44,214 nucleotides of DNA from Acidobacteriota bacterium (GTDB lineage Bacteria; Acidobacteriota; CAIWXX01), in NCBI GenBank assembly GCA_016191015.1, contig JACPPM010000050.1, positions 1 through 44,214 of the forward strand. Reading direction: 5' to 3'. Every line of letters begins with the position of its first letter. Position 1 is the stretch's first letter. Made by a program: the position numbers and the translations under genes. The notes under the pieces were generated by a model. It saw only the letters and a list, made by a program, of their open reading frames with translations. It ran no database searches and was not told the origin of the DNA. Shown piece after piece: positions 28,336-40,915 of the stretch.

Positions 28336-30357
28336 CTATTCAACGATTGTGATCTTCCAACTCCTGGTGAAGGCTAGTTTCGTTCCCTCGAGATGCCCCT
28401 CGAACTTCAGCTCGTAGGTTCCGAGCGGGGCACGTTGATTCAGGCCGATGAAGTACACAAGGTATGGAAAACTCTTGAGGTGGGATCTGACGCCGTTCAC
28501 CGCCTCAATAGACGGGGGATAGAATTCCGGGCTGGTGATGATTTCTTCACTATTGGGCGTGATCGTCAGATTTCCATAGAAATAGTATCCCGGCGCTGTT
28601 CCTTGTATTCTCGCGTCAATCGCCACCATGATCGCCTCGCCCCTCCTGAACGTGCTCCTTTTCATCTCTTCCCTCGAGTTGGCGCTGCCGCTTGCGTAGA
28701 CATCCAGGATCTCCACCTTTGCAGGGTTGCCACGATCCGGCCCACTGATTCCATGGGCTGCGAATGCCCGTTTGACTGCATCCTTGTCGCGCTCTTCTGC
28801 CGCCTGCACAGCGGCATCGCGGATGCCGAAGAAGTTCTCCGTGCCGTCGAGCAGATAGTTCGCATCCAGGAATGTCTGCAGTGCTCTTGTGCCGATCGCT
28901 TTGTAGAGATTCCAGAAGGCTCCCGAAACGATCATCCCGGCATAGTGCGGTTCGGAAAACCCAGCCATGGGGTGTACCACATTTCCCGGATAGCGGTTGC
29001 TGTTGTCCGCAGACCGACCCATCCAGACACCGACCTTCCGGTCAATAGCCGCGTACTCGGCCCCCAGCGGGTTGCCAGTTAGGCCTGCCGCAACGCAGTC
29101 GCCCCAGCCTTCGTGGTACGCAGCGCCGTACACATCGTTGGAGCGTTCAATAAGCGCCGGCTGGATCGAATCGAGCACCGCGTGGCCATACTCGTGAGTG
29201 AAGATGTCCGAATCGAATGCGAAGGGATTGAGCATCAGTGGGACCCAAGTCGCGATGAAACCCGAATCGAAGATAGCCCTTGCATAGAAAGCGTTGTCTG
29301 CCCCATCAGCGCAATTGACGAAAACCGGCATCTGCGACCGAAGCTCTTTGAAGCCCATAGAGGCCAGGATGCCGTAGGCTCGATCTATGTGGTAGTAGGC
29401 CATGGCCTCTCCGAACCTGTGATCGCCCCAGGCCGAATCGTTTACAGGAAAGGTGTAATCGCCATTGGAATCCGATGCGGTTGTGAATTTGGAAACATCC
29501 TCCTTCGAATACGGCGTAGACAGCTGATAATTCCCATTGTACGTTCTCACATGAGCTCCAGAGAGGCTTGTGGGAGATTTGAGGTTCTTGAACGTGACCG
29601 ATGTCAGAGAACTCGCCGCCGGATTCTCAGGATAGATCGTCCCCTTCGCCGTAGCTTCCAAGACCATGTTCAGTCTCAACGGGACTACATTGGGATTCAG
29701 GGCGTCGACAAGGACCAACCAGTACTTCGGCTGTGTCGATGCCACTTGTGCCGGCACGCGATAAACGAGTCGCAGCTCCTCGCCTTCCCGATGTAAGACC
29801 AACTCGGGGGAGCTAGTTGTCACGGTTCCGCCGTTCTCCGAACACATCCGCACGGCGCGCGACGTGGCTTCCTCTATGTTGACCTTGGGCTCCGTTTCCG
29901 GGTGCTTGCCCGGAACGAAGTTGTTCTGAAGGAGAACCACTCTACCTGACCCGTCGTAGTGCACGTAGCTGGACGGACCCATCACGCGTATCCCATCAAT
30001 CGTCTGCGTCAGGGCCACGTGGACGGCGTTGCGGCTGGTCAAGATCCTGGACCCGGCCCGCGCGACATCATCGGGATCGACGCCGAACATTTCCCCGTTT
30101 TCGGAGAAGAACCGTCGCGCCGCATCAACCCGGTCTCCCTGAGTCGGATCGGAAAGAACACCACTGGCCCGGGTCACCCGGCTGCCGTCCGCGCTTAGAC
30201 GGTATTCGAATGCGTGTCCTAAGCGGGACTGGTAGGCCTGCGCTGCGAGATCAGCCCTCCCGGCAGCACCCTCTGCGGTGGAGAGTCCGAGGACGAGGAC
30301 ACCGAGGCCCGTCAGGACCGCTCCTAGCTTTCGCACCACAATCTGCAAGAGTTTCAT
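28336..30357 (-). CDS. Secreted zinc metallopeptidase, M36/M4-like
   Basis: This 673-residue protein has a signal peptide (residues 1-30). An FTP-like propeptide (about 35-230, containing VHVALTQTIDGIRVMGPSSYVHYD) follows, as in fungalysin and thermolysin precursors. The catalytic domain has HEYGH (388-392) and HEGWGD (415-420, E416 as third zinc ligand), the gluzincin arrangement. A beta-rich C-terminal domain of about 130 residues follows (from about 545), possibly for substrate binding. ATG at 30357 is preceded by GAGGAGGAAG. It lies 22 bases after a paralogous gene of the same strand, so the two are co-transcribed. Extracellular protein digestion is likely; specificity unknown. Confidence 0.9.
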   Translation of the reverse strand: MKLLQIVVRKLGAVLTGLGVLVLGLSTAEGAAGRADLAAQAYQSRLGHAFEYRLSADGSRVTRASGVLSDPTQGDRVDAARRFFSENGEMFGVDPDDVARAGSRILTSRNAVHVALTQTIDGIRVMGPSSYVHYDGSGRVVLLQNNFVPGKHPETEPKVNIEEATSRAVRMCSENGGTVTTSSPELVLHREGEELRLVYRVPAQVASTQPKYWLVLVDALNPNVVPLRLNMVLEATAKGTIYPENPAASSLTSVTFKNLKSPTSLSGAHVRTYNGNYQLSTPYSKEDVSKFTTASDSNGDYTFPVNDSAWGDHRFGEAMAYYHIDRAYGILASMGFKELRSQMPVFVNCADGADNAFYARAIFDSGFIATWVPLMLNPFAFDSDIFTHEYGHAVLDSIQPALIERSNDVYGAAYHEGWGDCVAAGLTGNPLGAEYAAIDRKVGVWMGRSADNSNRYPGNVVHPMAGFSEPHYAGMIVSGAFWNLYKAIGTRALQTFLDANYLLDGTENFFGIRDAAVQAAEERDKDAVKRAFAAHGISGPDRGNPAKVEILDVYASGSANSREEMKRSTFRRGEAIMVAIDARIQGTAPGYYFYGNLTITPNSEEIITSPEFYPPSIEAVNGVRSHLKSFPYLVYFIGLNQRAPLGTYELKFEGHLEGTKLAFTRSWKITIVE

Positions 30358-30379
30358 TTCTTCCTCCTCACCCGTTACA

Positions 30380-32374
30380 CTACGGTTCGATGGTGACATC
30401 GAACGTCTTCTCAAACGTGAGCGCCGACCCGCCGAGGTGTCCCTCGATCTTCAGGTGATACGAGCCCGCAGGGGTGTCCTTGTCTGACAGCACGAAATAC
30501 AGCACGTACGGCCCGCCGCTCCGCTGCGATCTCGTGCCGTTACCTGCCTCGACAAGCCCCGGCAGCGTGACTTGAGTAATGCTCGGGAAGACTTGTGCGT
30601 CGTTTATAGACAGCTTGCCGTAGAAGCGGTAGGCCGGGGCCGCGTCCTTGATCTCTGCGTCGACACAAACAGCTATGGTTTCGAACTTCCGGAACCGGGT
30701 CCTCTTCTCGAATGTCCCAGATTGCGGGAGCGCCGGATAGACGTCCAGGATCTTCACCTTGGCATTGTTGCCAGGATCCGGACCCAAGACTCCGTTATTT
30801 AGGAAACCATTATAGATCAGTTGCTTGTAATCTTCGGGGGAGGCCTGGATTACGGCATCCCGGATGCCGAACATATTCTCTGAGCCGTCCAACAGGTAGT
30901 TGGCATCGAGAAACCACTGTAGCACCTTGCTGCCAAATTGTCTGTACAGGTACCAGTACGGTCCGGAGATGATCAGGCTCGCCTGATGCGGGTCGGTGAT
31001 TTTGTAGACAGGGTCCTGGACATCCGTCGGGTACACGCGGAAGTCAGTGAGGCTAACAGCATCGTTTACCCACGCATACTCACCGATCTGCGAGTTGCGG
31101 TTCAGAGAGGCGGCAAGGATGTCCCCCCACGCCTCGTGGTAGATGCGGCCGTACACGTGCTCGACATTCGCTCTCAGGAGTGGCTGGATGTGGTCGAGCG
31201 CCGCGTGCCCATACTCATGATAGTACACGTCCGAATCATTGGCCCACTGAGCTGGTATCTCCAGGAGTCCGGTGCGGGGAAAGACGCCCAGCGTCGAGTC
31301 CCCGGGCTGGTAGTGGGGGAGATAGAAAGTCCGCGTGTGCAGGAAGACCGGCATCTGTTCGTCGAGCTCGTTGAACCCCATGTCTTTGAGGGTGTCGTGT
31401 GCGCGGTTCACGTGGTAGTAGGCCATGGCCTCGGCAAAGCGGATGTGTGAAGGCTTACCTCTTGGATCGGGCCACCCGGGCCCCCGATAGGTGAAGTCAC
31501 GGTCGCTTTCTGTGGCAGTGGTGAACTTGCGCTGGTTTTCCACCGATTCCGGTAGCCAAAGCTCGTTTTTGCCATTGTACGTTCTCACATAGGAGCCGGA
31601 CAGGCGCGTCGGCGAGAGGAGATTGGGGAAAACGAGAGACTGGAGCGAGGTCGTGACCGGGTTCTCAGGAAAAATGGTCCCCTTCGCCGACGCGGCCAGG
31701 AGGACTTCCAGTCGCTGAGGCGCCACATCAGGATCGATGGCATCGATAAATACCATCCAATCCGTGGGCGGCGTGGATGCCACACGAGTGGGGACGTAGT
31801 AGACGAGTCGCAAATCGTCGCCTTCGCGGCGCAGGACCAGCTGCGCCTCCCCCGGGGTCACAGCGGCATCCTCCGAGAAGGCCCGTTTCACCTCTGGGCC
31901 GATCTCGTCGCGAGTGAGCCTGGGCGTTGTTCTGGGCCGCGCGCCCGGGAGGAAATTGTTCTGGACGAGCATGATCCGCCTTTGCTCGTCGTAGTGCACA
32001 TGGCTGGCCGGGCCCATCACGCGAACACCTCCGATCACCTGCGTGAGGGCGACGTGAATACCATTCCTGCTGGTGAGCACTCTGGATTGCGCCCGTCGCA
32101 CACTGTCGGAATCGATGCCGAACATCCCCTTGTTCTCACACACGAAATCCCGCGCCGCCTCGATTCGGTCGCCTTGGACCGGGTCTGAGAGAACTCCACT
32201 CGCCCGAACCACCCGGTCTCCGTGGCGGCTCAGGCGATACTCGAACTCGTGTCCCAAACGAGACTGGTACTCGGTCACCGCAAGATCGACCTCTCCGGCG
32301 CTCATTCCGGCCGAGACGCCGAAGACGAGTACGCCAAGGCGCAACACGAATCCTCCAAAAGGGTCCCTTGTCAT
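30380..32374 (-). CDS. Secreted zinc metallopeptidase, M36/M4-like, paralogue
   Basis: This 664-residue paralogue of the next gene has the same order throughout: signal peptide (about 1-27), FTP-like propeptide (30-225, NGIHVALTQVIGGVRVMGPASHVHYD), catalytic HEYGH (386-390) and HEAWGD (413-418, E414), then a C-terminal beta domain from about 535. All zinc ligands and the catalytic Glu are present, so both copies should be active. ATG 32374 is best placed after AAGGAG; a GTG one codon earlier is too close. The region before the catalytic motif differs most from its partner (HTRTFYLPHYQPGDSTLG), which may change the active-site entrance. It is the first gene of the operon. Confidence 0.9.
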   Translation of the reverse strand: MTRDPFGGFVLRLGVLVFGVSAGMSAGEVDLAVTEYQSRLGHEFEYRLSRHGDRVVRASGVLSDPVQGDRIEAARDFVCENKGMFGIDSDSVRRAQSRVLTSRNGIHVALTQVIGGVRVMGPASHVHYDEQRRIMLVQNNFLPGARPRTTPRLTRDEIGPEVKRAFSEDAAVTPGEAQLVLRREGDDLRLVYYVPTRVASTPPTDWMVFIDAIDPDVAPQRLEVLLAASAKGTIFPENPVTTSLQSLVFPNLLSPTRLSGSYVRTYNGKNELWLPESVENQRKFTTATESDRDFTYRGPGWPDPRGKPSHIRFAEAMAYYHVNRAHDTLKDMGFNELDEQMPVFLHTRTFYLPHYQPGDSTLGVFPRTGLLEIPAQWANDSDVYYHEYGHAALDHIQPLLRANVEHVYGRIYHEAWGDILAASLNRNSQIGEYAWVNDAVSLTDFRVYPTDVQDPVYKITDPHQASLIISGPYWYLYRQFGSKVLQWFLDANYLLDGSENMFGIRDAVIQASPEDYKQLIYNGFLNNGVLGPDPGNNAKVKILDVYPALPQSGTFEKRTRFRKFETIAVCVDAEIKDAAPAYRFYGKLSINDAQVFPSITQVTLPGLVEAGNGTRSQRSGGPYVLYFVLSDKDTPAGSYHLKIEGHLGGSALTFEKTFDVTIEP

Positions 32375-32402
32375 CACATGCTCCTTTTTAGCACATCTCC
32401 AC

Positions 32403-32593: not shown

Positions 32594-33190
32594 GTGGCTG
32601 AAATAAGGAAGTTCGTCAGGTCGCGGCCGGACGCTGCCACGGGCGAGGAGCCTGATTTCGAGCTGGTGCGGCAGTTCCAAAGCTCCGGGGATCCAGCCGC
32701 ATTCGAAGCCATTTTCCGGCGCCACCAGCAACACATCGCGAATCTATGTCTTTGCATTCTGAGATCGCGTGCGGACGGCGAAGATGCTCTGCAGGAGGTG
32801 TTCCTGAAGGCCTACAGAGGGATGAGCACATTCGAAGCCACTGTGACTCTACGTGGCTGGCTCCACCGGATCGCGGTGAATCACTGTCGGGACGTTCTTG
32901 AGCGTCGGAGGCGCCTGGCGGAGGAAAGGGATGATTGCCTGCAGTCCGTCACCTCTCACCCCCATGACGATTCGGGGCTCGTCGAAGGAATGGCGATCGA
33001 GGCCGCTTTAGACAGGCTCGATCCCCAGTATCGAATCGCATTCGTACTGAGTGCCGTCGAGGGCCACACGATCGCGGAGGTGGCCGAGCGAAGTGGTATC
33101 GGGATCGAGGCGGCCGCGAGCCGCATACGGCGGGCGTACAAGCATTTTTCCGACGCCTACAGGTCGCTGAGTAGGAGGCAGTCATGTTAG
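32594..33190 (+). CDS. ECF sigma factor, RpoE-like
   Basis: This 198-residue protein has region 2 (about 24-95) with the canonical acidic 2.2 motif DGEDALQEVFLKAY (61-74) and GWLHRIAVNHCRDVLERRRR as 2.3/2.4. Region 4 (about 132-190) has LDPQYRIAFVLSAVEGHTIAEVAERSGIGIEAAASRIRRAYK. It starts with GTG at 32594 after AACAGGAA. Unlike the sigma at 5724 it keeps its acidic residues and is followed, with a seven-base overlap, by a zinc-finger anti-sigma gene, so control by sequestration is expected. The adjacent divergent metallopeptidase operon is a natural candidate target. Confidence 0.95.
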   Translation: MAEIRKFVRSRPDAATGEEPDFELVRQFQSSGDPAAFEAIFRRHQQHIANLCLCILRSRADGEDALQEVFLKAYRGMSTFEATVTLRGWLHRIAVNHCRDVLERRRRLAEERDDCLQSVTSHPHDDSGLVEGMAIEAALDRLDPQYRIAFVLSAVEGHTIAEVAERSGIGIEAAASRIRRAYKHFSDAYRSLSRRQSC

Positions 33191-34869
33191 GTCCAGGCGC
33201 AGAATGCCGCGGCGTGGGCGACCTTCTGATCTATTTTCAGAAAAAGGAGCTCGATCCGGAGCGATCGGAGATCGTCGAATCGCATCTCGCCGAGTGCGCA
33301 GAGTGCCGCGGCGAATTGCAGGAGCTGGTGAGAGCGCAGGAACTGGCTCGTGGCTTGAGAGTGGAATCCGCAGATGTCGACCGGTACCCGGAGTTCCAGC
33401 GGCGACTCGCGGGTCGTTCTGCGAGGCCGGATGACGTTGCTGTCAGCACATCCGAGGTGCCGTGTGAAACGAAGAGAGGCGCGCCAGCACTACCCGCAAA
33501 ACACGGCCACAGTGGCGCAGCGATTCTGCTCCCTCTCTTCGGACGCACGCTTGCCATCAGATCCGGCTTCGGCCGGGGTTTCGAGATGGTTGTCGTGGGC
33601 AGGACCGGTGCGGAAATTCTCAAAATCTCGGTCACCTCCATGGCTCGCGCGGCGGCAATCGGATCCGTCGTGACGCTCGTTCCGACCTTCGTCGTCGTGT
33701 TTCTCATCCTTCCGTGGGCCCGCAGGGATGGGAACCCCACACGACAAGAGGTTCAGTATGCAGAAGGCCCACTCGGATCATCGGGGTTCGGATCATCGGG
33801 ATTTGGAGCTCCTCCCCCTCCCATGGACTCTCTGGATATCAACGCCGCCCCCGCCGGTGACTTGTCCGTCATCGTCACTCAGGGAGGCGGTGGTCTGATC
33901 GCGAAGATCTGGAATCGTGGAAAATGGGGCGCCGCCATGGCGCTCCCTTCTCTGGCGCCTCCGAGTCGTGGCTTGGTGCTCCAAGGGTCGGTGATGGGGA
34001 CCCTCGCGTCGGACGGTGAGAACGCGGTCTTTGTCGGCTCGTCCCCGCAGGGCCTGGCCTCCTGGCGAATCGCACCGGTGGAAGGAGCGGTTCGGGCCGC
34101 GACGCCCTTGCAGGTCCAAGGCGACGCACCGGACCTGTGCTGGGACGGGGATCGCTATCTCTTGGCCTGGACTTCCTTTGGGCCGAGAGGGTCGAGGATA
34201 TGGATGATGTCGCTCGACCGCCAGGGCCAACCGGCATCAGAGGCAACCGAGCTGATCACGGGATCTGGCATTGAGATGGGCCCTCTGCTGCCGAGTATCG
34301 CCAAGAAGCACGATTGCGCTCTTCTCTGCTATCAAACCATGGGGGGAGGAATCCGCGCGCATCTCGTTCGCGGTGACCCATTGAGGGAGAAGGCGTCGTC
34401 GAAGCTCCTCGTGATCCCCGCGTCCTTTGATGGCTTGATGCGCAAACCGCGCATACGAGAGCTGGCCGACGGCTTTCTTGTCTTCTGGGCTGAGACATCT
34501 CAGGACGGAACGTGGATCTTCATGGTGAGAGTCGATAACAGCGGTGCGATCGGAAGCAGGACACGACTCGTCTATGTCGGCGGACCGATACCGGCATGGG
34601 ATGTGGGCGCCGCCGACCAAGGGCCCATCGTGGCGTGGATCGAGGCTTCCTCTGCCGGAGTGAGAGTCATGAGACAGGAGTTCGATCGTGAAGGCGAGCG
34701 CGTGGGCGACCCGGCGGTCGTCCCCTCGCCCGCCTGTCTGCCGAGTGGGCTGGCCATCGGCAACCCAAGTGCCGATGTGATCTTCTGGCTTTGCCACACT
34801 GCCCGCGACGGGCCGCGCATAGAGGTGTGGGCCGCCAACACGGGTGAGCTCAGACGGAGTGGGCCTTGA
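33184..34869 (+). CDS. Transmembrane zinc-finger anti-sigma factor with propeller-like outer domain
   Basis: This 561-residue protein has an N-terminal zinc-binding anti-sigma domain with H34, C38 and C41 (HLAECAEC), as in ChrR/RsrA-type ZAS proteins. A variable linker and one membrane span (159-179) follow, then a glycine-rich linker (GSSGFGSSGFGAPPPP). The outer domain of about 350 residues has repeated strand motifs ending in W (LASDGENAVFVGSSPQGLASWRI, LCWDGDRYLLAWTS, ADGFLVFWAET, QGPIVAWIEAS), which suggests a beta-propeller. It overlaps the sigma gene by seven bases. It probably holds the sigma at the membrane until the outer domain senses an external ligand or is cleaved. Such a large outer domain is unusual for this class. 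Confidence 0.85.
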   Translation: MLGPGAECRGVGDLLIYFQKKELDPERSEIVESHLAECAECRGELQELVRAQELARGLRVESADVDRYPEFQRRLAGRSARPDDVAVSTSEVPCETKRGAPALPAKHGHSGAAILLPLFGRTLAIRSGFGRGFEMVVVGRTGAEILKISVTSMARAAAIGSVVTLVPTFVVVFLILPWARRDGNPTRQEVQYAEGPLGSSGFGSSGFGAPPPPMDSLDINAAPAGDLSVIVTQGGGGLIAKIWNRGKWGAAMALPSLAPPSRGLVLQGSVMGTLASDGENAVFVGSSPQGLASWRIAPVEGAVRAATPLQVQGDAPDLCWDGDRYLLAWTSFGPRGSRIWMMSLDRQGQPASEATELITGSGIEMGPLLPSIAKKHDCALLCYQTMGGGIRAHLVRGDPLREKASSKLLVIPASFDGLMRKPRIRELADGFLVFWAETSQDGTWIFMVRVDNSGAIGSRTRLVYVGGPIPAWDVGAADQGPIVAWIEASSAGVRVMRQEFDREGERVGDPAVVPSPACLPSGLAIGNPSADVIFWLCHTARDGPRIEVWAANTGELRRSGP

Positions 34870-35127: not shown

Positions 35128-37959
35128 TTACGGAGTGTGCTCCTCAATCCCCCACAGGCCCATGCGTGCGCGGGCGAGCGTGGCGATTGCGGCGATGACC
35201 GCGAAGATAGTCACAAGCATCACTATCGATGGCCTCGCGGACCTGGCGCCACTCACGCCGGACACCGGCACGGCCGAGCCGTCGCCGATGACGACCAGGC
35301 CGGCCCACGCCGCGGCGGGGGCGCCGGCACTCATCCGATCCCGCTGTGCCGCAGCCAAAGAGGCGGCGACGTCGTGCCCCATAGCCAGGTGCTCGCAGAA
35401 ACCCTCCGAGAGGCCGCTCGCTTCCGCGTCTCTGAGTGGCCAGAGGCTTCCGACAACCGTGCGCGCACCCGCCTGCAGAAAGGCGCGGGCGATTCCCATG
35501 ACGCCCTCGCCTCTGAGCTGCGTCCCGGTGACGCTCCTGCACCCAAAGAGCACGACGACCTGGCCGTTCAACCGAAGACCGATGATATCCCGGCTCTGGA
35601 GCAGACCGTCCTCCGAGGGTGGACTCGGCGCCAGGAGAACGGCCGAACGATCCGGATTCCTCTCATCGATTACTACATGCGTAGCAAAATACAGGATGCC
35701 GTACCGCCTGAGGTCGGTCTGCTTGAGCGCGTCTTCGCTCGCATCTGTCCCCTCGAGGAGGAGGCTGCCGGCACCGAGAAACCGCGTGATCATCCGGCCT
35801 TCGATTCGGGCGTACGGCAGAGCCCCCGGCAACTCATCGGCGTCAAGCAGCCGGAGACGTTCGAACGCGTTCGCCTTCCCCTCCCGCACCAGGTGGGGAT
35901 CCGCAAACACGATTGCGGGGCGATCGGCTGCAGGCGCCAGTTTCTTCAACCACCGCAACCAGACCGTGACCGAGGGCACCAGGCACAGATCGTATTGCGC
36001 GATCAGGGGTGGGCCCTCGCTCCGCGCACGCAAGGCGCTGAACGGGAGCCTGTGGAGGCTCCCATCAGGCACAATCACCAGGCGCCTGATCGCAGCCGGC
36101 ATGATCCGCATCGCCGGTGCCAGGAGGTCACGATAAAGAGCGGCCGCGGCGGCAGCCTCCTGGCCGTCGCGACGCGAGACCATCCCGGTGAAGAGATCAA
36201 CCTGCGCTTCGAGCATTCGACGGTCCGGGAGCGCAAACACGCGAGAGCTTGTGCGCGTGATCGCGATCAGCCATGAGCCACCTTCGGTCGCACCGCCCAG
36301 TTGTTCTCGCTCGGAGAGCTGGAAGGACAGCAGCATCTCGTCCGTGGCCAGTCTCCGCTGGACCTCCGCGATTGCGGGGATGTCCGGGTGCCTCACCACC
36401 GCGAACCTCGGATCAGACTGTGCGATCTCCTCGCGCAGAGTCCCCTCCTGCACCTCGAGATTGTCGAGTCGCTCGACCGCCTCCGACCTCTCGTGCCCCG
36501 ACAGCTCACCGCCAAGCAAAGTCTTCTGAAGCTGCGCGATCTGGTCGAGCACCGCCAACCGCTGCCGATCAAGCGCGCTCCTCGGGCTCAGCGCAGCCGT
36601 GCTGCGTGCGGCGTCGAGCGCATCCAGAAGCACTCGCGCACGCATCCTTTCGGTCACAGCGAACGCGGCATTCAGATCGGCGGGAGATCCGAGCAGATAA
36701 CCGGAGAGCTGGTAGTAGGCAAAGGCCCATTCCGAGAAGAGCCGGGCACGGACGGCGTCGTCGCGCTGCAGATCCCGGATGCGTTCGATCGCGTCCAGCG
36801 CCGCGAGCGACTCCGCGATAGCCTTCGGACGATCTCCGGAAATGACGCGCATATACGCCCGCGTCAGGCAGGCACGGGCGAAGGTGGTGGGGCTTCCCGT
36901 GAGGCGCGTCAGAGCGAGGGACTTGTCTGCGAGCTCGAACGCCAGCTCGGCCTGCCCCGGTTCGGTGAGAATGAGATTCAGCGCCACCAGGCGCGAGGCC
37001 GACGCCATGAGGTTAATGTTCCCCGTGGCGCGCGCCGCGTCGAGTGCGCGTTGTGCAGCGTCCAGCGCCTCGGGTGGGGCGAGGTCCCGGTCTTGGGCCT
37101 GAAGGCAGTAGACGGCGGCCTGCGTCTCGAGATTCCGGGCACGCATGGCGGCGTCCAGCGCGTCGAACCACAGCTTCCTTGCGCGCTCGGCGGTCATCGC
37201 ACCGCTCTCCAGCAGCCTCCGCGCCAGTGTCGCGATGTTGTAGCGCACCCTCGACTCCTCGTAATAATCGCCGTTCTCCCAATGCAGCACGGCCTCCTTC
37301 GCAAAACATGCGAGCGCTTCCTCGTTGTCGCCGGTCGCCGAGGCCACCGCACCCAGTCCGTCCAATACCAGGGCGAGAGGGTAGTCCTCCTCGCCCTCCG
37401 CCGCACCTTCGGCCTTGCTGAGCTGGGACCGAGCCAGACTGTATTCGCCCCGCGCAATCGCCATGAATCCCATTTCGATCCAGACCCGGGTCATCAGCCG
37501 ATGATCGCCGGATGCCGTGACCGCGGCACGGTCGACCATCTCCTCCGCCTCCGTCATTCGCCCTCGCTGGCGGAGGAACGTGGCGAGGCTGAGGCGCGCG
37601 AGGGTTTCCCCTCTCTTGTCGGCGACGGCAGCGAAGCCTTCGGCTGCCGCGCGGTACGACGTCTCGGCCCGGGCCCGCCCACGATCGGCTTCGAGGGCAC
37701 CCAGGAAGAGCCGCGCGAAGCTGTTCGAGGGGTCGCGGGCTAGCACAGCATCGAGCCGTCGCATCGCCTCATCCCAGCTCTGATAACGCCGGGCCAGCAC
37801 CAGATAGCAGCGGTAGGCATCAAGCTCGCGTGGATGTTCGCTGATGAGCGCCTCGCAGTCGCGGAAGGCTGTTGGCCTGGAGAGATCAACACCGGCGCGC
37901 GAACCCGTCGATGCCATCAACAGGATGGCTGGAATCAGACCGGCGATGGACAGGCGCAT
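35128..37959 (-). CDS. Exported, membrane-anchored TPR-CHAT protease-like protein
   Basis: This 943-residue protein has a signal peptide (residues 1-22), TPR pairs (about 30-460), a coiled linker (465-515) and a CHAT caspase-like domain (about 520-895). The expected dyad is present: His761 in YFATHVVID and Cys807 in VVVLFGCRSVTG, as in separase-like peptidases. Near the C-terminus is a membrane span (911-930) with a short basic tail. The signal peptide and terminal anchor would place TPR and protease in the periplasm, whereas many studied CHAT proteins are cytoplasmic. It is 27 bases downstream of the FlgO/TPR gene, with which it surely forms an operon. Substrate unknown; a role in stress response or envelope signalling is inference. 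Confidence 0.88.
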   Translation of the reverse strand: MRLSIAGLIPAILLMASTGSRAGVDLSRPTAFRDCEALISEHPRELDAYRCYLVLARRYQSWDEAMRRLDAVLARDPSNSFARLFLGALEADRGRARAETSYRAAAEGFAAVADKRGETLARLSLATFLRQRGRMTEAEEMVDRAAVTASGDHRLMTRVWIEMGFMAIARGEYSLARSQLSKAEGAAEGEEDYPLALVLDGLGAVASATGDNEEALACFAKEAVLHWENGDYYEESRVRYNIATLARRLLESGAMTAERARKLWFDALDAAMRARNLETQAAVYCLQAQDRDLAPPEALDAAQRALDAARATGNINLMASASRLVALNLILTEPGQAELAFELADKSLALTRLTGSPTTFARACLTRAYMRVISGDRPKAIAESLAALDAIERIRDLQRDDAVRARLFSEWAFAYYQLSGYLLGSPADLNAAFAVTERMRARVLLDALDAARSTAALSPRSALDRQRLAVLDQIAQLQKTLLGGELSGHERSEAVERLDNLEVQEGTLREEIAQSDPRFAVVRHPDIPAIAEVQRRLATDEMLLSFQLSEREQLGGATEGGSWLIAITRTSSRVFALPDRRMLEAQVDLFTGMVSRRDGQEAAAAAALYRDLLAPAMRIMPAAIRRLVIVPDGSLHRLPFSALRARSEGPPLIAQYDLCLVPSVTVWLRWLKKLAPAADRPAIVFADPHLVREGKANAFERLRLLDADELPGALPYARIEGRMITRFLGAGSLLLEGTDASEDALKQTDLRRYGILYFATHVVIDERNPDRSAVLLAPSPPSEDGLLQSRDIIGLRLNGQVVVLFGCRSVTGTQLRGEGVMGIARAFLQAGARTVVGSLWPLRDAEASGLSEGFCEHLAMGHDVAASLAAAQRDRMSAGAPAAAWAGLVVIGDGSAVPVSGVSGARSARPSIVMLVTIFAVIAAIATLARARMGLWGIEEHTP

Positions 37960-37986
37960 GGCACGGTCACCGCGGTGTCGTCGGCC

Positions 37987-40305
37987 TCAACTGGAGCTCC
38001 GCCGGGCGAACCCTCGGGCGAGCCCTCGGGCGAGCTCCGCGATCAGGAGAAACCCCTTTGCTCTCGCGTCGCTCTCGACTGCCGAGAGGTGTCCGAGAGC
38101 AGCTGCGTTCCTTCCCTGTTTCAGATCGACCGCGGCCAGGGCCAGACGCGCTTCGAGCAGCAGCCCGGTGAATCCGTGCTTCTGCGCATCGCGGACGGCG
38201 GCTTGGAGTGACGGGACAGGGTCGGTTCCGCGAGGGTCGCCGTACGAGGCACGTACCCGGCCGAGGGTCACGATCACGAAGACGTGCTGATAGGCGCTGA
38301 TCGGTGGTCTCGACAACTCCTCGGCGCGGCCGAGTGCGGCGGCAGCGGCCCCGCTGTCGCCGCGCGCCATGAGCGCCCAGGCGAGGAGAGCGCGCCCCGA
38401 GGCCTCGAGTCCCCGCATCCCGGCGGATTGGGCGCGACCGGCAACCGAGAGGCACAGAGACTCGGCGTCCGCAGGTCTTCCCTGCTCCAGCGCCACGAGG
38501 GCGCGCGCGAGCTCCGCCTCGCTCGCCAGCGCCTTGAAGCCCCGATCCGTCCAAATCGCACTAGCCTCGTTCAATGCTCTCTCGGCCCCGTCCAGATCCC
38601 CCCGGTCTCTGAGTACGCGCCCGAGGCCGAGGGAGGCCTCTGCGATGAGCGACCCCTGGTCACCCGCGCGGGCTCTCTGCAGGATCTGTTCGAAAAGCTG
38701 CTTTGCATGAAGCAGGTTACCCTCTCGCGCGCTCAGGATCGCGAGGTCGCAGAGGGCGTTGTCCGGAAGAAACGGACACCCGGAAAGGATTCCGTCGCCC
38801 GCATCGCGGATGATCCTGTAGGACTCGATGAGTGTTCGCCGAGCGGCCGCGTGGTCTCCGAGCTCCATCAGAACATTCCCCATTCTGTCCAGGGCTTCGG
38901 CCTCGTACGGTCTGCTGCCGCGGAACTCGCGCAGGATTTCGATGGATTGCTGGAGGGAGTCCCGAGCTTTCTCGAGGTCGCCATTCCTGCAGTGGAGCGC
39001 ACCGAGTATGCTCGAAGCCTTCCCCACGCCCCAGCGATCGCCGAGCGCGGCGCGGATTCGACGGGCCTCCTCATAGGCGGACTCCGCTTTCTCGATCTCC
39101 CCCATCCACTCCAGGGCGTTTCCTTGAGCTATGAGGGCGTCGTCCACCAGAGATCGCGCGCCCTTGCGACCTGCGGCTTGGGCGGCGCGGGTCGCTGCGG
39201 CAAGCTTGCGCTTCGGCTCGTCGTCGGCAAACCACGCTTCGGCGAGGTCGATCCTCGGGTCTCCCAATGAAGGAAGGGGCGTGCGGCGCAGGCGGTCGAG
39301 AGTTGCGTAGGCTTCATCCAGATGACCTGCCTTCGCCTCGGCCGTTGCGAGCGAGAGGCCGTAATCGAGGTTGTCCGGATAGGCCGTGCCCAATTCCCGC
39401 AGGAGCTCGGCCTCCCGCTCGACTTCCCCCGTCCGATCCAGGTAGGCGGCCTCCACACAAAGCCTGATCTCATGGGGGAGGCCGCTGGAGAGGTCGTAGG
39501 CCTTCCGAGCCTCCTGCTCGGCTTCACCGGCGAACCCCAGCGAGCCGCAGGCGTCGGAGAGGGCTGCGTGGGCGAGAGCGAACTGCGGATCTGCGGCGAC
39601 CGCTCTGTCGAGCAGGTCGCGGGCGGAAAGAAAGTCGAACTGGCGGAGCTTCACGAGCCCCTCGGCGTAGAGGCGCGCCGACTCGCGGCTGGAGGGGAGT
39701 GACGCCTTGAGCTGTCGTTCTTCGGCGGACGTCAGCTTTCCCGACGCGAGTCTCCCGCGAAGACGTGTGCCGATTCGAGATGCAAGATCGACGATGTCCT
39801 TCTCCACCCCCTCCTCGGTGGCAGTGATGAGCGTCTCTCCGGTCGATGCATCCTGCACGCGCGCTGAGACGCGGACTCGCCCTCCGGTCGCATCGCCGAG
39901 AGTCAGATAGGAACCGACGACGATCAGGTCCGTGCCGATGTTGGTTCGGATTCTGGCGAGCGTTTCGGCGGTGAGCGCGTCCGAATTGGGCAGCTCCAGA
40001 TCGGACTTCATCCGCGCGACCTCGCCCCCGGGAATCGCTCGAATCCGCGGAGCTACGGAGAGCTCCGATGTCAGCATCTCCGAGAGCGCGGGGGAAATCC
40101 ACGCCGATTCAGGGCTCCCCGACGTGTCCGAGAAGCCGATGACAGCGACGGCCGGGCGAGGCCCTGGCGAGGTGGGCGCATGAGTGGCCGCAGGCTGGAG
40201 GATGCCCCACCGGAGACCAATGAAGATGCCCAGGCCGGAGAGCAGGGCGAAAACCGCCAGTCCAGCTACGACGAGCACCCATCGAGGACGGGAAGCATCA
40301 CGCAT
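37987..40305 (-). CDS. FlgO/TolB-like domain plus TPR protein: receptor part of a kinase without the kinase
   Basis: This 772-residue protein has a short basic N-terminus (MRDASRPR) and a membrane span (9-30). A FlgO/TolB-N-like domain follows (about 50-185: PAVAVIGFSDTSGSPESAWISPALSEML, then GTDLIVVGSYLTLGD). TPR pairs fill residues 205-772. In Acidobacteria this order normally follows a Ser/Thr kinase domain in one protein (general knowledge); here nothing precedes the membrane span. ATG 40305 was chosen because the earlier in-frame GTG at 40365 overlaps the small upstream gene. The start overlaps that gene by eight bases. Its partner downstream is the TPR-CHAT gene. It probably senses an outside ligand and acts through CHAT or a kinase in trans. 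Confidence 0.85.
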   Translation of the reverse strand: MRDASRPRWVLVVAGLAVFALLSGLGIFIGLRWGILQPAATHAPTSPGPRPAVAVIGFSDTSGSPESAWISPALSEMLTSELSVAPRIRAIPGGEVARMKSDLELPNSDALTAETLARIRTNIGTDLIVVGSYLTLGDATGGRVRVSARVQDASTGETLITATEEGVEKDIVDLASRIGTRLRGRLASGKLTSAEERQLKASLPSSRESARLYAEGLVKLRQFDFLSARDLLDRAVAADPQFALAHAALSDACGSLGFAGEAEQEARKAYDLSSGLPHEIRLCVEAAYLDRTGEVEREAELLRELGTAYPDNLDYGLSLATAEAKAGHLDEAYATLDRLRRTPLPSLGDPRIDLAEAWFADDEPKRKLAAATRAAQAAGRKGARSLVDDALIAQGNALEWMGEIEKAESAYEEARRIRAALGDRWGVGKASSILGALHCRNGDLEKARDSLQQSIEILREFRGSRPYEAEALDRMGNVLMELGDHAAARRTLIESYRIIRDAGDGILSGCPFLPDNALCDLAILSAREGNLLHAKQLFEQILQRARAGDQGSLIAEASLGLGRVLRDRGDLDGAERALNEASAIWTDRGFKALASEAELARALVALEQGRPADAESLCLSVAGRAQSAGMRGLEASGRALLAWALMARGDSGAAAAALGRAEELSRPPISAYQHVFVIVTLGRVRASYGDPRGTDPVPSLQAAVRDAQKHGFTGLLLEARLALAAVDLKQGRNAAALGHLSAVESDARAKGFLLIAELARGLARGFARRSSS

Positions 40306-40543
40306 GCCGGGTGCGATTGAGCCGTTCCCTGAACGCGCGAAAATTCGCCTCGGCCCATTCCTCACTGAGCCGATTCATGCTTTCGAGGCTGCGGTGCTTG
40401 TAGACGCCCGGTGGGAATCGAGGCGATCCCCACCGATCCCCGAAGCTCCAAACCCCCGCGATGGCGCCGTACAGTTTCGGATCACCGCGATCCAGCCACG
40501 GCTCCGGCATCTCCTCACCCCGTCGCAACTTCCGAACTGGCAT
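40298..40543 (-). CDS. Small conserved-looking protein, function unknown
   Basis: This 81-residue protein is acidic and aromatic-rich, with PEPWLDRGDPKLYGAIAGVW and FPPGVYKHRS as striking elements and a helical end (NRLSEEWAEANFRAFRERLNR). The wording suggests a genuine conserved small protein of the kind found in toxin-antitoxin-like pairs, but I cannot name the family. The ATG at 40543 overlaps the stop of a 24-codon frame by one base (TGATG), and its own stop lies inside the start region of the FlgO/TPR gene. These tight overlaps suggest an operon. It could also be a remnant left where the kinase part of the neighbour was lost. Confidence 0.55.
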   Translation of the reverse strand: MPVRKLRRGEEMPEPWLDRGDPKLYGAIAGVWSFGDRWGSPRFPPGVYKHRSLESMNRLSEEWAEANFRAFRERLNRTRHA

Positions 40544-40617
40544 CACTCCTCCGCGAGACCGAAACGCTGACGCAGTGCCATCGCGGCGAGCACCTTCTTC
40601 GAGGCTTTGTAATCCAT
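40543..40617 (-). other. Tiny 24-residue frame overlapping the small gene
   Basis: ATG 40617 to TGA 40543 encodes a basic, helical 24-residue peptide (contains KASKKVLAAMALRQRFGLAEE). The stop shares one base with the next start (TGATG). An in-frame stop lies five codons upstream of the ATG, so it is either a true micro-ORF, a leader peptide for coupling, or the last codons of a decayed gene. It has no good ribosome site. Confidence 0.35.
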
Positions 40618-40915
40618 GGACTTACTGCATCAAGTTCGAAGGGCTATCAACGCTAAGCTCTGGCCCCGTTCCTGAACCTACGGTCATTATACAACGAGCC
40701 TGTCGGCCCGGTCCCGATCATAGCCCTGACAGACATAGGCTCGTCCCTCGCCATCGTCACACCGGGGATGAAGTGGACCCAGGCTTTTCGATCTCGTTCC
40801 GGGCCTCGACCTATGGATGCGCGACGCGGCTTTTCGTGATAGCTTCTGAAACACGAAGCGACCCACTGAAGGGGATGCCCGGAGAGGCCGTGACCGATAC
40901 CCGGAAGGGACATGG
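40618..40915. other. Divergent intergenic region before the fourth kinase
   Basis: These 298 bases lie between the minus-strand CHAT operon and the plus-strand kinase. No gene was recognised. GGAAGGGA just upstream of 40916 serves as ribosome site for the kinase. No convincing promoter boxes could be assigned by eye. Confidence 0.4.

Follow-up and report, generated by a model that had tools for sequence, protein, structure and literature searches.

A predicted periplasmic TPR-CHAT protein family linked to ECF sigma factors and one-span anti-sigma factors

What is the role of a TPR-CHAT protein encoded directly behind a receptor-like membrane protein that carries no kinase? The question is raised by two genes on the minus strand of a contig of 44,214 nucleotides from an Acidobacteriota bacterium (JACPPM010000050.1, here called the window). 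The first, P0001 (37987..40305), starts with an ATG codon and encodes a FlgO/TolB-like TPR membrane protein of 772 aa, and the second, P0002 (35128..37959), encodes a TPR-CHAT protein of 943 aa that is predicted to be periplasmic. Both are real, intact genes, chance being ruled out for each. They are separated by a gap of 27 bases (37960..37986, −), a spacing that suggests an operon, and inspection of the sequence revealed no obvious Shine-Dalgarno motif before the P0002 start. An 82-aa ORF (40298..40546, −) overlaps the start of P0001 and may head its transcript; it had no match in Pfam and NCBIfam searches, and a search of 60 genomes returned only weak relatives. Together with a tightly overlapping 24-aa ORF, it occupies positions 40298-40618 (−) immediately upstream of P0001, and the two are possibly the leftover of a small gene pair. 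A preliminary description of the locus had proposed that the FlgO-TPR and CHAT proteins form a sensor-protease pair, in which proteolysis replaces phosphorylation as the output.

P0001 begins with a short positive segment followed by a single membrane span (residues 9-32; 40210..40281, −), which is visible both by hydropathy and as a helix in the AlphaFold model (pLDDT 89). The span is followed by an alpha-beta domain of FlgO/TolB/LpoB-like character (residues 52-185; 39751..40152, −), delineated by secondary structure and family alignment, and by a TPR superhelix (residues 193-771; 37993..39729, −) that is supported by the Pfam families TPR_12 and TPR_MalT and by the model. The Pfam FlgO profile did not match P0001, and the label “FlgO” is used here for a resemblance in fold topology and motifs together with a weak match to LpoB (E=0.024). 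A structure search with the whole protein returned TPR proteins, with MalT domain III among the best matches.

No kinase domain was detected in P0001 by Pfam, whereas the Ser/Thr kinase-FlgO/TolB-TPR receptors, to which it aligns with 25-38% identity across the span, the FlgO-like domain and the TPRs, carry one at their N terminus. Most relatives of P0001 are fused to Ser/Thr kinases in this manner, and several such paralogues are present in the window's genome. Other relatives are fusions with winged-helix domains of the Trans_reg_C type (Pfam E ~1e-16), and the window's genome also encodes a free-standing paralogue of 797 aa with a lipoprotein-like start (L070). P0001 is a modular receptor, periplasmic by hydropathy, whose kinase-less form is one of several states in the family. 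We also considered a loss of the kinase by local deletion, the alternative that the preliminary description had itself raised, and rejected a deletion leaving traces, since kinase similarity upstream of P0001 is no higher than expected by chance and no remnant is present. Elsewhere, a FlgO-TPR protein encoded at L163:5828-8620 (+) has an N-terminal stretch that, by reading, resembles a class III nucleotide cyclase, for which Pfam gave no match. Within the window, a gene divergent from P0001 (40916-44170, +) encodes a Ser/Thr kinase that also has a membrane span and a long TPR region.

P0002 opens with a signal-peptide-like stretch (residues 1-23; 37891..37959, −) that reads MRLSIAGLIPAILLMASTGSRA-G, and continues with a TPR/helical region (residues ~32-520; 36400..37866, −), as indicated by the model and by profile matches to TPR structures. 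The CHAT domain (Pfam residues 604-893; 35281..36150, −; E=1.4e-56) scores 192.5 bits against the Pfam CHAT profile PF12770, for a cut-off of 24, and covers profile positions 3-289 of 289. The catalytic residues His761 (codon 35677..35679, −) and Cys807 (codon 35539..35541, −) fall in invariant columns of the family alignment. A C-terminal membrane anchor (residues 909-934; 35158..35235, −) is predicted by hydropathy and is followed by a short tail containing Arg. The architecture given in the preliminary description, namely an N-terminal span in P0001, 27-base spacing, and a CHAT protein that faces the periplasm with a signal peptide, TPRs, an intact dyad and a C-terminal anchor, is thus confirmed at the level of sequence, hydropathy and alignment. 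These features support a periplasmic location of P0002 by prediction and an intact CHAT dyad, from which we infer that the protein may be proteolytically active.

The closest structural match of the P0002 model (pLDDT 82) is Csx29 (Z 26.3 over ~555-575 residues, spanning about residues 150-896), and the model also resembles the catalytic region of separase (Z 26, rmsd 3.1-3.2, ~300 residues) and the anti-sigma factor DdvA (Z 21.7, 498 residues). When a profile of the CHAT domain alone was compared with PDB chains, DdvA came first (E=5.7e-11) and Csx29 next, while separase displays weak sequence similarity to the CHAT profile (E ~6e-5). Searching PDB chains with phmmer, using either P0002 or a Myxococcus homologue, was unproductive.

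To assess whether the two genes form a conserved pair, we used P0001 and P0002 to query 396 genomes of the phylum, scoring the best two candidates per genome. Close relatives of P0001 were found in 28 genomes and of P0002 in 32, with both in nine, and among these nine the two are adjacent in the window alone. The flanks of 54 other loci of the CHAT family, some of them short, contained no FlgO-TPR gene, and no relative of P0001 was found adjoining a P0002-type CHAT gene elsewhere. In the window's own genome, a kinase-FlgO gene does lie beside a CHAT gene on contig C164, a case that we rejected because the two genes are convergent and that CHAT protein falls outside the P0002 family. With adjacency in 1 of 396 genomes and at 0 of 54 other loci, a conserved FlgO-TPR/CHAT pair is rejected, and on this genomic evidence P0001 is a local, non-conserved companion of P0002. 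The sensor-protease pairing of the preliminary description is accordingly not upheld as a conserved arrangement; nor is its idea of proteolysis replacing phosphorylation, since winged-helix fusions and a free-standing copy make the missing kinase nothing special. That description had also named, as the picture that would speak against it, relatives of P0001 that all carry a kinase and have no conserved CHAT neighbor. Most of this picture holds, as the relatives are mostly kinase-fused and none stands beside a P0002-type CHAT gene, except that kinase-less forms exist.

We then turned to the CHAT protein itself. A profile scan of public genomes yielded 80 loci, among them one in Myxococcus xanthus AM003; Acidobacteriota and Myxococcota account for most of the loci. 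Identity to P0002 is ~29-44%. In an alignment of 62 family members, the His and Cys of the dyad are invariant (62/62). The C-terminal span is near-universal, 57 of 59 members passing the hydropathy test and the remaining two being borderline, and a hydrophobic start comparable to that of P0002 is present in 45 of the 52 members in which it could be tested. P0002 is the sole close member of the family in its genome, where the next CHAT protein has 32% identity over a partial length; 11 further CHAT genes were counted there. Several of these, at loci L079, L081, L080, L055, L056 and L082, are close to ECF-sigma-like and anti-sigma-like genes of other types, and the link between CHAT proteins and ECF sigma factors may thus extend beyond the P0002 family.

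The usual neighbors of the family's CHAT genes are one distinctive type of ECF sigma factor and a one-span anti-sigma factor, in which Pfam recognizes Sigma70_r2/r4 and zf-HC2, respectively. At 33 of the 55 loci first examined, the ECF sigma gene precedes the CHAT gene on the same strand, and many of the others are cut contigs. At 48 family loci (41 distinct), a module-type ECF gene is found no further than 3.5 kb away, and 28 of these loci also have the anti-sigma type. The anti-sigma factor displays an N-terminal zinc-finger motif, HxxxCxxC, that is lost in myxobacteria, followed by a single span and, at the C terminus, a presumably periplasmic domain of ~100 residues; some modules have, in between, a gene for a small protein whose start resembles a signal peptide. 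Across the 396 genomes of the phylum, the module ECF type occurs in 28 and a CHAT relative (E<=1e-55) in 32, and 27 of the 28 ECF genomes have both (Fisher 1e-35, a value that is uncorrected for shared descent and partly reflects the linkage itself).

The association is not exclusive. No sigma gene is present near L093, L105 and L121, and at L045:5962-11533 (+) a gene for a TPR hybrid histidine kinase directly precedes the family CHAT gene. These four neighborhoods indicate that the CHAT family is not bound to one partner, and the histidine kinase at L045 that other sensors can accompany it. In G001, a genome from the same family as the window's, a single frame (L051:8171-9622, −) opens like an ECF gene, runs on into the TPR part of a CHAT-family protein and looks like a decayed module.

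P0002 adjoins the FlgO-TPR gene and not the sigma and anti-sigma genes of the module. One strong module-type ECF gene (236 bits) is nonetheless present in the window's genome, on contig C121, where the anti-sigma gene (208 bits) comes next; the gene after that is unrelated, and no CHAT gene is adjacent. In the sister genome G001, the genes for sigma factor, anti-sigma factor and CHAT protein are contiguous. Its CHAT protein and P0002 are sisters in the CHAT tree, and the G001 anti-sigma factor adjoins that of C121 in the anti-sigma tree, while in the ECF tree, which is short and poorly resolved, the C121 factor does not stand beside that of G001. In another genome, G008, one contig carries a sigma/anti-sigma pair that lacks CHAT, and a second contig carries a CHAT gene with an anti-sigma gene and no sigma gene. 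With the window's genome, this case indicates that split modules do occur. The module of the window's genome thus looks split, with the sigma/anti-sigma pair on C121 and the CHAT gene elsewhere, and we consider it most likely that P0002 still acts on the C121 pair in trans.

The window has an ECF gene of its own (32594-33190, +), which overlaps a gene for a zf-HC2 anti-sigma-like protein (33184-34869, +) of 561 aa with a long C-terminal part; the pair is convergent with the CHAT gene. We rejected these genes as the missing partners, as the module ECF profile gives their sigma factor 23 bits, compared with 236 for the ECF factor on C121. Also in the window, tandem overlapping paralogues at 28336-30414 (−) and 30380-32377 (−) resemble M36/fungalysin-type metallopeptidases, both having HEYGH and Pfam scores slightly under the cut-off.

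Known systems provide three points of comparison, besides separase (C50), a eukaryotic cohesin protease with which P0002 shares the caspase-like His/Cys dyad. DegS is a PDZ serine protease. In the DegS/RseA system, an anti-sigma factor is subject to regulated proteolysis (PMC10028731), and the logic proposed here is the same, that of a periplasmic protease acting on a one-span anti-sigma factor, except that P0002 would be a caspase-like cysteine protease. In the Craspase of type III-E CRISPR systems, Csx29 cleaves Csx30, which relieves the inhibition of the ECF-like CASP-sigma (PMC10028731). Csx29 is, like P0002, a TPR-CHAT protein with a His/Cys dyad; P0002 differs in having a signal peptide and a membrane anchor, in belonging to a non-CRISPR family (13.8 bits against the Csx29 family model, well under the cut-off of 300), and in that an RNA-guided activator is not known for it. 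In Myxococcus xanthus, the ECF sigma factor DdvS has DdvA as its anti-sigma factor (PMC4374960). DdvA is a transmembrane protein of an ECF sigma pathway, with the CHAT fold inside the anti-sigma chain, whereas the CHAT domain of P0002 is on a separate protein and the anti-sigma factor of its module is a short one-span protein. Pfam detected no zinc-finger or sigma-binding domain in P0002, in which the signal peptide is followed by TPRs. Two precedents are already known: Craspase, in which a CHAT protease acts on a sigma-factor inhibitor, and DdvA, an anti-sigma factor that contains a CHAT fold. A limited search of the open-access literature for CHAT joined with ECF sigma or anti-sigma factors returned the Craspase paper alone, and within that search we found no report of a separate CHAT family that resides in the periplasm and has its own one-span anti-sigma factor.

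Based on the predicted periplasmic location, the invariant dyad and the linkage to a one-span anti-sigma factor, we propose that P0002 works in the periplasm as a protease of the separase/Csx29 kind, which would control the anti-sigma factor in trans and into which P0001 may feed. We give this reading about even chances. In this model, the periplasmic TPR part of P0002 would sense or bind a signal or a partner, leading to activation of the CHAT domain. The active CHAT domain would cut the anti-sigma factor within its periplasmic domain in a site-1-like manner, much as DegS acts on RseA, further proteolysis would free the sigma factor, and P0001 may add a periplasmic input in this genome. The anti-sigma factor as substrate, the action in trans and any contact with P0001 are what we infer here. 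More tentatively, and at somewhat under even chances, the family may embody a widespread, non-CRISPR version of the Craspase logic at the envelope, with CHAT as the site-1 protease of a dedicated one-span anti-sigma factor and, in this genome, its gene moved under or beside a FlgO-TPR receptor.

DdvA illustrates that a CHAT domain can belong to the anti-sigma factor itself, which counts against the protease reading: the solved chain contains a CHAT fold (titles and molecule name of PDB 8ROT/8RW5), and CHAT could be a ligand-binding or regulatory domain rather than a working protease of the pathway, as perhaps in DdvA. We regard this as the least probable of the readings, given that all 62 aligned family members have both His and Cys and that DdvA itself retains the aligned His and Cys. 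It is also rather unlikely that, in this lineage, P0002 was recruited away from the sigma/anti-sigma pair and joins P0001 in a periplasmic complex of sensor and protease. The shared strand, the 27-base gap and the periplasm-facing hydropathy of both proteins are consistent with such a complex, as is a possible parallel at L045, where CHAT lies right behind the hybrid histidine kinase; but the pair occurs once in 396 genomes, the C121 sigma/anti-sigma pair is intact, suggesting that the old link is retained, and an interface has no sequence support.

Equally improbable, in our view, is a chance adjacency, in which a rearranged FlgO-TPR paralogue that lost its kinase came to lie beside a displaced CHAT gene, their co-transcription being functionally meaningless. 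The many kinase-FlgO-TPR paralogues of the genome, the lack of conservation of the pair and the odd small ORF overlapping the P0001 start would fit this scenario. Against it, both frames are long, intact and confidently modeled (pLDDT 89 and 82), and P0001 need not be a broken gene, as no kinase trace lies upstream and other kinase-less FlgO-TPR proteins are known here.

Bacteria encode many caspase-like CHAT proteins, few of which, to our knowledge, have a known substrate. For the P0002 family, the conserved three-gene module points to the one-span anti-sigma factor as a candidate substrate and offers sigma-dependent transcription as an output that can be measured; a family member is present in the genetically tractable Myxococcus. 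If the proposed control of the anti-sigma factor is true, the Csx29/Csx30/sigma circuit would be one instance of a wider protease/anti-sigma theme, and envelope stress signaling would gain a cysteine protease class.
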